Source of the DNA: Desulfobacteraceae bacterium
GTDB lineage: Bacteria; Desulfobacterota; DSM-4660; Desulfatiglandales; Desulfatiglandaceae
Direction: 5' to 3'
DNA: 6,985 bases
NCBI GenBank assembly: GCA_020349865.1
Contig: CP070700.1
Coordinates: 397,910 to 404,894, forward strand
The notes under the pieces are model-generated. The model worked only from the letters and a program-made list of their open reading frames with translations, made no database searches and was not told the origin of the DNA. The position numbers were made by a program, and so were the translations under genes. Of the stretch, positions 3,252 through 6,985 are shown piece by piece (within the stretch, counting starts at the first letter, position 1; every line of letters begins with the position of its first letter).

Positions 3252-4022
3252 TCAGGCCTGATCCGCAGAATGCACGGATCGGCGTCTTATTGAACTGTTG
3301 AAGGATTCGCCAACGAATGCATGGACGATGGGTTCACCCGATGACATTAATTCTTCTGGTGTACCCTCAGCCCAGATAACGCCCTCGTGGAGCATGGCAA
3401 CCCTGTCCACAATATCAAATACTTTTGGGATCTCATGGGTCACTATTATTCCGGTAAACGAAAGTCGTTTGTGGCAGGAATCAATAACATTGAGAATGGC
3501 AGCGCCAATGACCGGATCCAATCCGGTTGTGGGCTCGTCAAAGAGCATTATTTCAGGATCCAGGACCAGGGCCCTGGCAAGCGCTGCCCGTTTGACCATT
3601 CCTCCGCTTATCTGAGAGGGATATTTGTGCTCCGAGCCTGACAGCCCCACATGCTCCAACTCATTGAGCACCCTCTCACTGATACGTTCGTCATTCAGCC
3701 TGGTCTTTTCCTTTAAGGGGAAGGCCACATTCTCAAAGACGGTCATGGAATCAAAAAGGGCACCACCCTGAAAAAGAAAACCCAGCCGATCTCTCAGACT
3801 CAGTAAGTCCCGGACCCTGAGCGCGTGCACGTCTATTCCGTCCACGATCACCCGCCCTCGATCCGGCTTCATCAGACCAACAACGTGCTTTAAAAGAACG
3901 CTTTTGCCACTACCGCTGCCTCCTATCAAAGCGACAACTTCGCCCTTCCCTATCCCCAATGAGACACCTCTCAGGATTTCTTTGCCGTCGAATAATTTGT
4001 GGAGGCCATCAATCTTGATCAT
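3252..4022 (-). CDS. mlaF: MlaF, ATPase subunit of the phospholipid ABC transporter
   Basis: MlaF is the cytoplasmic ATPase that powers the MlaFED lipid transporter. All nucleotide-binding motifs are present in the 256-residue product: Walker A GGSGSGKS (34-41), Q-loop glutamine 85 in FLFQGGALFDSMTVFENV, ABC signature ISGGMVKRAALARAL (138-152), Walker B EIMLFDE (157-163), D-loop GLDP (167-170) and switch histidine 196 in VTHEIPK. The SGGM signature and the FQGGALFDSMTV segment are typical of the Mla/Ttg2A branch. The frame is open back to 4172, but the extra 49 residues overlap mlaE and do not look like ABC sequence. ATG 4025 and ATG 4022 both start credible proteins. I chose 4022 because AAGGA (4032-4028) is five bases from it and only two from 4025. 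That Shine-Dalgarno overlaps the mlaE stop codon, which suggests translational coupling. The arginine-rich tail (RRR, 246-248) is unremarkable. Confidence 0.95.
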   Translation of the reverse strand: MIKIDGLHKLFDGKEILRGVSLGIGKGEVVALIGGSGSGKSVLLKHVVGLMKPDRGRVIVDGIDVHALRVRDLLSLRDRLGFLFQGGALFDSMTVFENVAFPLKEKTRLNDERISERVLNELEHVGLSGSEHKYPSQISGGMVKRAALARALVLDPEIMLFDEPTTGLDPVIGAAILNVIDSCHKRLSFTGIIVTHEIPKVFDIVDRVAMLHEGVIWAEGTPEELMSSGEPIVHAFVGESFNSSIRRRSVHSADQA

Positions 4023-4030
4023 CATGTTCC

Positions 4031-4810
4031 TTAAAAGAGCAGCGAAGTCATAACATAATCCCACACAAGGATAAGTACTGACGACGTGACAACGGCCTGT
4101 GTGGTTGCTTTGCTTACTCCCTCTGCACCGAACCCGGTGAATATTCCAGTGTAAAGCCCTTTGAAACAGCAAACCCAGATAATAATAACGCCGAAAGTCA
4201 AAGATTTATATATGCCTTCCATGACATCCTTGATATCCATATAGCTGGCCATTTCTCCAAAATAGGTGCCGGCACTAACGCCTAAGAGTTTCACCCCAAC
4301 CAGATATCCCCCAAATATACCCACAACGTCAAAAATGGCAGTCAAAAGAGGCATTGAAATAATCCCTGCCAGGAGGTTTGGGACTATAAGATAACGGTAT
4401 GGATTAAGACCCATGAGCTCAAGCGCATCGACCTGCTCACTGATGCGCATGATCCCTATCTCTGCGGTGATGGCCGATCCAGCCCTCCCGGTGACCATCA
4501 GGGCGGATATTACCGGTCCCAACTCTTTGATAAGGGCAAGTCCCACCATGGGCCCTAAAAAGGCATCGGAGCCAAACCGGCTAAGGCTGTAAAAGCCCTG
4601 AAAGCCCAGGACCATTCCCGAGAACCCCCCTGTGAGGAGGATAACTGAAGTGGATTGTAAGCCGATGAAGCGAATCTGCTTCATGACCCGCATAAATTTG
4701 ATGGGAGGGACGAAGGTATAGAAAAAGGCCTTGAGCAAGAATAGCCCCATGACCCCCAATCTGTATAGATATTCCAGCGAAACTGCTCCCAATATTCGAA
4801 CATATTTCAT
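4031..4810 (-). CDS. mlaE: MlaE, permease subunit of the phospholipid ABC transporter
   Basis: MlaE is the inner-membrane permease of the Mla transporter, acting as a dimer with two MlaF subunits and a MlaD hexamer. At 259 residues it matches E. coli MlaE (260). An interfacial N-terminal helix (about 18-38) precedes hydrophobic segments near 52-75, 86-106, 146-173, 203-224 and 238-258. The family core is KELGPVISALMVTGRAGSAI (95-114), then AEIGIMRISEQVDALELMG (116-134, the coupling region that contacts the ATPase). The C-terminus is GAEGVSKATTQAVV (228-241), close to the family consensus. The start has no good Shine-Dalgarno: the 20 bases before it are purine-poor. Translation may therefore depend on coupling to the gene 43 bp upstream. 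The length match still favours ATG 4810. Confidence 0.94.
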   Translation of the reverse strand: MKYVRILGAVSLEYLYRLGVMGLFLLKAFFYTFVPPIKFMRVMKQIRFIGLQSTSVILLTGGFSGMVLGFQGFYSLSRFGSDAFLGPMVGLALIKELGPVISALMVTGRAGSAITAEIGIMRISEQVDALELMGLNPYRYLIVPNLLAGIISMPLLTAIFDVVGIFGGYLVGVKLLGVSAGTYFGEMASYMDIKDVMEGIYKSLTFGVIIIWVCCFKGLYTGIFTGFGAEGVSKATTQAVVTSSVLILVWDYVMTSLLF

Positions 4811-4853: not shown

Positions 4854-6176
4854 CTATATGTCCTTGAGCCGCACATTGGCCGGCGATCTCTCAATAAGGT
4901 CGCCGAAGGACTTCAGGCATTCAGATAGCCTTTCCAGTTCCTCGGACTTGGCAACCGGGATGTTGTCGCTTCCGTGCCCTTCCAGAGTATCCATTACATA
5001 CTTAACTGTCATAATGTCGGTATTATGAGCCGGCTGGTATGCGACGTTTTTATCCCTGTCAACATTGATCTCGGAAACAATACCTGAGCCCACCAATTCA
5101 TACAAGATCAGACGAACAAGGCGAATGGGGATTTCCAGTTTCTGCGAAATCTGGGTCTCATTCAAGGATTTTTCCAAATCAGAAAAATTTTTCACCAGCA
5201 AATGGACAATTCGCAAGGTCAATAGCCTTTTGAAGGCGTTACTTACCCTCAGGCTGTCCGGCTCAAATTCAAAGGTATGCACGTTCTGGTGTGCAAAAGA
5301 TATCTCTGCACCAAAGAGTACGATGAGCCAGCTCAATTGCAGCCATATCAAAAACAGGGGTAGTGCCGCAAAACTTCCGTAAATGGCATTGTATCTGGCA
5401 ACTCCAAACTGTAGACTAATATAGAGCAATTGGAAAATTTGAAACAAAGCGCCGGCAACGATCCCAGCCAATGCACCAGATTTGAAATTGACCTTGGTAT
5501 TGGGCATAAAAATATACATGAATGTAAAAAGGATCCATATTGCGCAATAAGGCAGCAATTTGAGCATAAAAAATATGGCCGGCGCCACAACGCCCAGGAT
5601 GGCAATTTTCTGAATGAAGATTTCCACCTGTCCGGATATAAGAACAGTAATGGTACTTGACGTGATAAAAAGAACAGGACCGATAAGCATAATGGAAAGA
5701 TAATCTGCGACCTTTCTCCCGAATGATCTTCCTTTTTTAACTCCCCATAGATCGTTAAAAGAGTTCTCAATATGCCCCAATACCTTGATAATGGCCCAAA
5801 ACAGGAGAACAATGCCGACGCCAGCCATCACGCCGCCCTTTGTATTTTCCAACAGGGTGTGAGAAAAATTAATAAGTCTTGAAAGAACTTCCTCCTGTCC
5901 CTCCAGCCTCGTCATAAGCTCCCTTTCCAGAGCTTTTTCAAAACCGAAGCCTTTGGCTATGCCAAAAAGCATGGCAAATACTGGCACAATAGAAAGCAAA
6001 GAATAGACGGTTAAGGCCGACGCCCTGAGTTGGCATCTGTCTTCCACAACCCCTTTAAGGGACAAAACAAGAATCCTCAATTGCCTGATCAAAAAGGCCT
6101 TTGACCGCGTGAGATTCCTCTCCTGGATTCTCCATATATCGTCTTTTAAAAATTTTAAAGCCTTGGATATGTTCAT
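4854..6176 (-). CDS. yihY: YihY/BrkB family inner-membrane protein with C-terminal winged-helix-like domain
   Basis: This family was formerly misnamed ribonuclease BN; members are polytopic inner-membrane proteins whose biochemical role is poorly defined, with links to envelope integrity. The 440-residue product has about six membrane segments (near 53-75, 115-137, 158-181, 190-222, 232-256 and 272-292). It carries the family motif IYGSFAALPLFLIWLQLSWL (265-284) and GAEISFA (289-295). A soluble extension follows: residues about 315-385 look like a winged helix, with LNETQISQKLEIPIRLVRLI (338-357) as helix-turn-helix and GIVSEINVDRDKNVAYQP as wing. E. coli YihY (about 290 residues) lacks it, though longer relatives with such a tail exist. 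The frame reaches a GTG at 6242, but ATG 6176 has GAGGAA (6189-6184) seven bases away and begins closer to the usual N-terminus. It is the first gene of the Mla block. Confidence 0.88.
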   Translation of the reverse strand: MNISKALKFLKDDIWRIQERNLTRSKAFLIRQLRILVLSLKGVVEDRCQLRASALTVYSLLSIVPVFAMLFGIAKGFGFEKALERELMTRLEGQEEVLSRLINFSHTLLENTKGGVMAGVGIVLLFWAIIKVLGHIENSFNDLWGVKKGRSFGRKVADYLSIMLIGPVLFITSSTITVLISGQVEIFIQKIAILGVVAPAIFFMLKLLPYCAIWILFTFMYIFMPNTKVNFKSGALAGIVAGALFQIFQLLYISLQFGVARYNAIYGSFAALPLFLIWLQLSWLIVLFGAEISFAHQNVHTFEFEPDSLRVSNAFKRLLTLRIVHLLVKNFSDLEKSLNETQISQKLEIPIRLVRLILYELVGSGIVSEINVDRDKNVAYQPAHNTDIMTVKYVMDTLEGHGSDNIPVAKSEELERLSECLKSFGDLIERSPANVRLKDI

Positions 6177-6183
6177 GATAATA

Positions 6184-6189
6184 TTCCTC
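6184..6189 (-). promoter_or_regulatory. Ribosome binding site deciding the yihY start
   Basis: GAGGAA on the minus strand, seven bases before ATG 6176. The alternative in-frame GTG at 6242 has no comparable purine stretch upstream. Confidence 0.7.
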
Positions 6190-6271
6190 AATTGAGCCAA
6201 GCTTAACAATCGGAATACCTGATAGCAAATACCCAATACCACCTGATTGAGTATTGCTTAATTAGGGTAAT

Positions 6272-6590: not shown

Positions 6591-6646
6591 CCCCAGGAGA
6601 GATTATTTTGAGAGACTAAGTGTATAATATTGAGCCAAAAGTTCCT

Positions 6647-6728
6647 AAAAAATCCCCTCTTTCTCTCCTTTACAAAAGGGGAGGACTTATGCTTCCCCCT
6701 TTAACAAAGAGGGATCGAGGGGGATTTT
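6647..6728. repeat. Repeat of about 82 bp with inverted ends and internal hairpins
   Basis: The left end AAAATCCCCTC (6649-6659) is the reverse complement of the right end GAGGGGGATTTT (6717-6728) apart from one missing C. Inside are two further partly self-complementary parts: CTCCTTTACAAAAGGGGAG (6665-6683) and TCCCCCTTTAACAAAGAGGGA (about 6694-6714). This architecture resembles the small nonautonomous repeats built around CCCCCTTT/AAAGGGGG found dispersed in many bacterial genomes. No transposase is nearby. No target-site duplication is obvious. Confidence 0.65.
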
Positions 6729-6784
6729 GTTTGATCAATGTGGAAAGATACCTACCTGTTCTATAAAGTGCCTATGAATGAGTT

Positions 6785-6883: not shown

Positions 6884-6895
6884 ACTACAAAAAGA

Positions 6896-6899
6896 GAGG
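6896..6899 (+). promoter_or_regulatory. Ribosome binding site of the selenoprotein gene
   Basis: GAGG within AAAGAGAGGT, eight bases before ATG 6908. It is the only well-spaced Shine-Dalgarno on the plus strand in the right part of the window, and it marks the short UGA-containing frame as a translated gene. Confidence 0.7.
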
Positions 6900-6907
6900 T
6901 AACATTT

Positions 6908-6985
6908 ATGGCAAAAGAGGTTATCATCTATGGCAGAGGCGGCTGACCCTATACACAAGATGCCAGGTCGGCTTACGGCAAAGAC
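6908..6985 (+). CDS. Glutaredoxin-like selenoprotein with in-frame UGA (UPYT motif), 5' part
   Basis: From ATG 6908 the plus strand reads a thioredoxin-fold first strand, KEVIIYG (3-9), then GRGG, then TGA at 6944-6946 (codon 13), then PYTQDARSAYG. The frame stays open to the window edge (26 codons). Glutaredoxins have CPYC after this strand; here UGA stands where the catalytic cysteine would be and T replaces the second cysteine. This fits the small glutaredoxin-like selenoproteins of deltaproteobacteria (I recall a family named Uxx-star). GAGG at 6896-6899, eight bases before the ATG, supports the start, and a SECIS-like hairpin follows the UGA at the right distance. Such proteins are presumed cytoplasmic redox proteins; the substrate is unknown. 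Reading UGA as a real stop would leave a 12-residue peptide. The remainder of the gene lies beyond the window, so the fold is judged from its first 26 residues. Confidence 0.8.
6947..6980 (+). promoter_or_regulatory. Candidate bacterial SECIS element for UGA recoding
   Basis: Bacterial selenocysteine insertion needs a hairpin immediately downstream of UGA whose loop is bound by SelB. Here GCC (6962-6964) and GGC (6970-6972) enclose AGGUC (6965-6969), 18 bases after the UGA. The E. coli fdhF element has an AGGUCU loop at nearly the same distance. A second pairing, UGCC (6961-6964) with GGCA (6977-6980), gives a larger loop that also begins AGG. The visible stem is short, so the assignment rests on loop sequence, distance and the host gene. 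Confidence 0.65.

Follow-up and report, generated by a model that had tools for sequence, protein, structure and literature searches.

Among the described systems, the one closest to the locus studied here is the 'UXX-star selenoprotein family 1' (NCBIfam NF041114), which is listed in the consulted passages of a 2026 review (PMC13188914) as 'Distant Grx-like protein 1', with a UxxT motif and two selenocysteines (Sec). The window, i.e. the whole stretch of 6,985 nt of DNA from a Desulfobacteraceae bacterium that was analysed, ends within the start of a likely selenoprotein gene belonging to this already named family, as judged from its sequence. The gene shares with the family the N-terminal IYG..UPYT site, has over-cut-off orthologues in the same gene position and shows no difference from the family in its 26 visible residues, the tail lying beyond base 6985. 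On balance, it is probable that this is a cut-off UXX-star family 1 gene in which the UGA likely encodes Sec, and that its product is a protein of about 71 residues, likely with a second Sec and with a predicted function as a small redoxin with two selenium centres. In the full protein, this second Sec is likely placed three codons before the stop.

The 5' part of the gene occupies positions 6908..6985 of the forward strand and translates as MAKEVIIYGRGG-UGA-PYTQDARSAYGKD, starting from an ATG at 6908-6910 in a frame that stays open through the last base, 6985, where it is cut by the contig end. A likely ribosome binding site, GAGAGG (6894..6899, forward strand), could be read directly 8 nt before the ATG, and AAGAGAGG was present at a comparable distance upstream of the nearest orthologues in genomes G001 and G003. 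The in-frame TGA (6944..6946, forward strand), likely Sec13, coincides with the attacking Cys of glutaredoxins, and at this place either TGA or a Cys codon was found in 132/132 family loci; the motif TGA-CCN-TAY-AC to which it belongs has a single occurrence in the window when both strands are counted. The 26-residue read-through matched NF041114 (E 6e-7, 29.6 bits over 21 of the 70 model positions, the cut-off of 72 being that of whole proteins) and also the wider family NF041212 (E 3.9e-4); therefore, it is not a chance frame. A Pfam search of the fragment gave no match, glutaredoxin PF00462 included; against this same model the orthologue P0002 scored 26.8 bits (gathering score 22.9) and P0005 fell just below, with 22.3. 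Thus, the UGA-containing gene with a ribosome site and a run-off frame proposed in the first-pass annotation was confirmed, and the assignment of Sec to the attacking-Cys position of a glutaredoxin-like gene was supported as likely, as was the presence of Thr at +3 in place of the resolving Cys. With UPYT at this site, the window has neither the second Cys of the CPYC of dithiol glutaredoxins nor CGFS, the motif of monothiol glutaredoxins. The string 'UPYT' was not met in the part of the literature surveyed.

Relatives were reached through the divergent neighbour of the gene, which encodes a YihY/BrkB-type membrane protein (4854..6242, reverse strand; PF03631, 1.9e-52) and served as synteny anchor, taking the best 80 of 193 loci. 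In the top three of these best 80 (L001-L003), from metagenome-assembled genomes labelled Desulfobacteraceae, YihY was 80-81% identical, and a full-length UXX-star gene (93.7-97.5 bits with NF041114) was found divergent from yihY in 3/3 of these nearest genomes. Over the 26 codons of the window, 67-70 of the 78 nt were identical to the three closest orthologues; the TGA was kept, and 3-4 codons differed synonymously and 4-6 non-synonymously. Among public proteins, P0005 and P0003 were identical to the window at 23/26 and 21/26 residues, respectively, both with Trp written at the place of the UGA. The gene located 3' of UXX-star was read as threonine synthase in the three nearest genomes, and rlmH was read in two of them. 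No common partner gene was found, as 188 ORFs around 59 loci, named by eye, gave only clade-level neighbours; those of another clade were endonuclease III and nucleoside diphosphate kinase (also named by eye).

Between yihY and the UXX-star gene, the window contains at 6645-6732 a repeat of the type AAATCCCC...GGGGGATTTT, which had at least 32 matches in G001 (including one in the corresponding intergenic region), at least 43 in G002 and at least 41 in G003. It resembles a REP or MITE-type element; no inverted repeat was listed at this place by the repeat search. A weak Rfam match to mir-4660 sits on this repeat, and the two weak Rfam matches of the window, both below gathering scores, were attributed to the repeat or to chance. 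Neither a tRNA-Sec nor a SECIS family appeared among the matches of the Rfam search of the window. In another part of the window, the called MlaF frame (3252-4172) begins at a TTG inside mlaE, whereas the gene probably starts at an internal ATG (MMIKIDGLHKL).

In the three nearest orthologues, the C-terminal tail reads GGT-U-GV-stop, with a second in-frame UGA in each of them, and the L085 orthologue (71 residues; 108.2 bits with NF041114, cut-off 72) reads MTKKVIIYGKGG-U-PHTQDARSAYGKDAQYVDVKKESDKLQEMLTHSGGGRKVPVIVEGKKITIGYGGT-U-GV. As the 78 bases of the window stop short of this tail, the second Sec is taken from the relatives. Genomes with the family over its cut-off were 10/17 of those chosen, 27/85 of the class and 100/395 of those drawn from the phylum (overlapping sets), and 0/14 control genomes. 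In total, 132 distinct over-cut-off loci were read, made up of 119 loci plus L142, L222-L232 and the first copy in L233, some rows being near copies (e.g. L223 and L225). Loci that scored under the family cut-off (L091-L099, L128-L130 and L234-L241) were left out; of the eight in the last group, the five that could be read (L235, L236, L237, L240 and L241) proved to be ordinary glutaredoxins with CPYC or CPWC and no Sec in the tail.

The tail codon was TGA in 131/132 loci and TGG in one (L111), and Cys was found at the tail in 0/132 family loci, although these were picked with a profile spanning the tail, which may thus hide tail-Cys members. The stop lay three codons beyond the tail position in 115/119 loci, and this Sec-X-X-stop tail is probably the meaning of 'UXX-star'. 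The real stop that follows the tail UGA was TGA in 62 loci, TAA in 34 and TAG in 21 (n=117). Therefore, as the final stop varies and the tail codon does not, the tail UGA does not simply serve as the stop of the gene. The tail UGA was also present in all 15 loci that have Cys at the first site.

A few members depart from the common pattern. L111 (5-214), the sole one with TGG (Trp) at the tail, lies near a contig start, and its TGG may reflect mutation, error or loss. In L233 (G449:C16) there is a tandem pair of UXX-star genes, the starts of which are about 425 bases apart. A divergent set (L208, L210, L222-L227 and L232) carries about 10-13 additional residues after the last strand and before the Sec tail (e.g. 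GDASLRGGIPLFGGTUPIK), and several members of this set have UPFC or UPYC and not UPYT.

The codon at the UPYT position was TGA in 117/132 loci and Cys in 15/132. Homologues with Cys aligned to the UGA, named in the first-pass annotation as a check of its proposal, do therefore exist, both in these 15 loci and in 48/131 public proteins. Codons, trees and stems were counted on 119 loci, without L142 and the 12 later-read loci. When both sites were masked, the tree of these 119 loci required 11 Sec/Cys changes at site 1, 7 of them forced by well-supported branches, and one change at site 2, the tail. As this tree is built on 72 columns, leaves 64/114 inner branches open and gives on average 12.5 site-1 changes when labels are shuffled, the 11 changes may be inflated by its poor resolution and the number of switches is uncertain.

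Since the tail Sec is never Cys in the 132 loci and the attacking site switches repeatedly, it may be, and we advance it tentatively, that the indispensable redoxin centre of the UXX-star family is the C-terminal Sec and not the classical N-terminal site. If so, these proteins would be glutaredoxin-fold enzymes with an intramolecular diselenide or mixed Se-S pair, in which a Sec tail has been substituted for the last helix and a second SECIS lies mostly 3' of the stop codon. A small protein with a tail Sec that lacks a Cys counterpart in the loci read, beside a switching site, would also offer a simple system to test what selenium can do and sulfur cannot. What is added here is that the tail Sec is nearly invariant whereas the N-terminal site switches, a contrast for which no claim of being unpublished is made; it was not met in the consulted passages of PMC13188914 and PMC2398784.

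The putative structure of the complete protein was approached with an AlphaFold2 model of the L085 orthologue (mean pLDDT 87), whose closest folds were glutaredoxin and NrdH. In the model, the relative adopts a beta-alpha-beta-alpha-beta-beta glutaredoxin/NrdH core that ends where the last glutaredoxin helix would begin, and the tail Sec is placed in a glycine-rich tail replacing that helix. The continuation of a glutaredoxin-type fold after the cut point, on which the first-pass annotation depended, is thus supported in relatives. The most likely mechanism would be that of a two-centre selenol redoxin, a chemistry that we infer. U13 (Cys in some members) would attack a disulfide, a selenenyl sulfide or a soft-metal bond, the tail Sec would resolve the product through an intraprotein Se-Se or S-Se bond and a reductase or small thiol would then reopen this bond.

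An unlikely alternative, though one to be reckoned with, is that the two selenols serve as a ligand pair for soft metals or metalloids (e.g. mercury, arsenic) or as a carrier of selenium or sulfur species, the protein not being a disulfide-exchange enzyme. Against this use stands the glutaredoxin fold with its invariant Pro53, which we take to be the cis-Pro place of redoxins. Moreover, none of the neighbour groups common to at least three of the 59 loci appeared metal-handling when representatives were named by eye. The same alternative is nevertheless contemplated in the consulted passages of PMC13188914, according to which the Sec of UXX-star proteins might bind metals as a ligand or encounter substrates as yet unknown.

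The two-centre redoxin also has to be compared with a one-Sec, monothiol-like glutaredoxin, the chemistry put forward in the first-pass annotation, in which U13 alone would be used and glutathione would resolve. Such a protein is suggested by the UGA at the attacking-Cys position and by the Thr that replaces the second Cys of CPYC, but it is quite improbable, as this reading is overturned by the GGT-U-GV-stop tail, the second UGA being present in 3/3 nearest orthologues and in 131/132 family loci, those with Cys at site 1 included. Therefore, the fragment, for all its resemblance to a monothiol redoxin with a single Sec, is more likely to be the first third of a protein with two Sec residues.

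The way in which these genes appear in public databases was followed in 131 proteins, including 120 of the 3063 matches of a profile search, the search alignment of which consisted of 63 of the 119 loci. Among the matches listed, 80/131 had Trp at both places, 48/131 had Cys at site 1 and ended exactly before the tail position, 2/131 (P0021 and P0022) started after the first UGA and 1/131 had Leu at site 1, and no tail Cys was found in any of these 131. The warning that standard gene callers would miss the gene was thus a fair one, with fragments that begin after the first UGA and others with Trp at the UGA places. That the UGA is a true stop, or an organism-wide Trp codon, with the frame beyond it a relic, is scarcely credible, since the proteins with Trp at both places (80/131 among the matches listed) are taken as products of the callers' alternative code, whereas MlaC and the called MlaF frame end with TGA in the window itself, the nearest genomes contain selA, selD or tRNA-Sec, and at site 1 UGA or Cys was read in 132/132 loci and never a Trp codon.

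The machinery for Sec, another check named in the first-pass annotation, was only partly recovered in the nearest genomes, where selA, selD and tRNA-Sec were found in part and selB was not found in any of the three. G001 had selA and selD over cut-off and a tRNA-Sec (ARAGORN, L100), G002 had the tRNA-Sec only (ARAGORN, L101) and no selA, and G003 had selA and selD over cut-off; selB was over cut-off in 0/3 of these genomes, which are fragmentary (2.0-3.2 Mb). Two candidates from G003 were discarded, namely a 47-bit tRNA-Sec match (L102) that corresponds to tRNA-Trp and a SelB match of 193.6 bits, a 398-aa frame located beside this same tRNA-Trp, which was read as EF-Tu and not counted. Class-wide, selA was over cut-off in 73/85 genomes and selB in 66/85, and one or the other was present in 25/27 UXX-star genomes of the class (all except G002 and G082) and in 58/58 of those without UXX-star. 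As selA or selB is also present without UXX-star, this co-occurrence does not discriminate. The selD genes of two of the nearest genomes (L219 and L220; G001 and G003) contain one in-frame TGA, so SelD is likely a selenoprotein itself.

Regarding the decoding of the first UGA, the rule given for bacterial SECIS elements in the consulted passages of PMC13188914 asks for a G within the first two positions of the loop, to which a G or U is often adjoined on the 3' side, at 16-37 nt after the UGA, and for an upper stem of 4-16 pairs with an MFE of -7.5 or lower. In the window, GCC-AGGUC-GGC (6962..6972, forward strand), contained in Ala-Arg-Ser-Ala codons, is the likely apical part of such an element. 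Its loop, AGGUC (6965-6969), begins 18 nt after the TGA and agrees with the rule in loop and spacing, whereas its stem has three contiguous pairs, one mismatch and one further pair where the rule asks for four. The thermodynamic folds were unconvincing, as the segment 6940-6985 reached its MFE of -10.9 in a different structure (z -1.15) that was not clearly more stable than shuffles, and the fold from the TGA onward gave -4.6 (z +0.9) in a sequence that ends 39 nt after the TGA. A free hairpin scan selected other stems in the window and in the orthologues of G001-G003, which also have three contiguous pairs. In view of the thermodynamic folds and of the family z values given below, the codon choice of Sec versus Cys loci was used as evidence instead.

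The GCC and AGG of the window are the commonest codons of Sec members at their positions. The Ala codon at +6 ended in a pyrimidine (GCC or GCT) in 106/106 Sec loci versus 6/13 Cys loci, in which GCG or GCA made up the other 7/13, and the Arg codon at +7 ended in G or T in 104/104 Sec loci (AGG, CGT or CGG; two loci have Leu) versus 8/12 Cys loci, the remaining 4/12 having CGC. Fisher p values for the Ala and Arg codons were 3e-8 and 7e-5 with all loci and 1.6e-6 and 6.9e-4 with 69 representatives, kinship being uncorrected in both cases. Four or more contiguous pairs flanked the loop in 80/106 Sec loci and in 2/13 Cys loci, and zero pairs in 0/106 and 7/13, respectively. In the hairpin scan, in which the shuffles preserve dinucleotides approximately, stems of at least 5 pairs followed site 1 in 70% of 56 Sec representatives compared to 18% of shuffles, and in 54% of the Cys loci (n=13) compared to 28%. 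After the tail codon such stems were present in 93% of 69 representatives versus 36% of shuffles, and the loop of the best tail hairpin began 20-23 nt away from the tail codon's first base in 48/69, hence beyond the stop codon. The mean z over 48 nt was -0.77 for Sec site 1 (n=106), -0.37 for Cys site 1 (n=13) and -1.56 after site 2 (n=119). Codon usage after the first site fits a SECIS loop mainly in the loci in which this site is UGA.

When compared with known redoxins, the modelled relative resembles glutaredoxins (PF00462; 3ic4, E. coli Grx3 3grx and cGrx2 4tr0) in the fold of its residues 1-67 and in the attacking residue, with which helix 1 starts, but UXX-star proteins differ from them in that Sec takes the place of Cys and Thr that of the second Cys, the final helix is missing and a C-terminal Sec tail is present. 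The fold also matches that of NrdH-redoxins (1h75, 4hs1 and 4fiw), which share with UXX-star the Gly-aromatic pair after the last strand and, unlike it, have a CxxC dithiol and a final helix. In mammalian thioredoxin reductase, as in UXX-star, the Sec belongs to a short C-terminal tail and lies close to the stop; in contrast to that enzyme, UXX-star is no flavoprotein, and its tail Sec would face its own N-terminal Sec or Cys.
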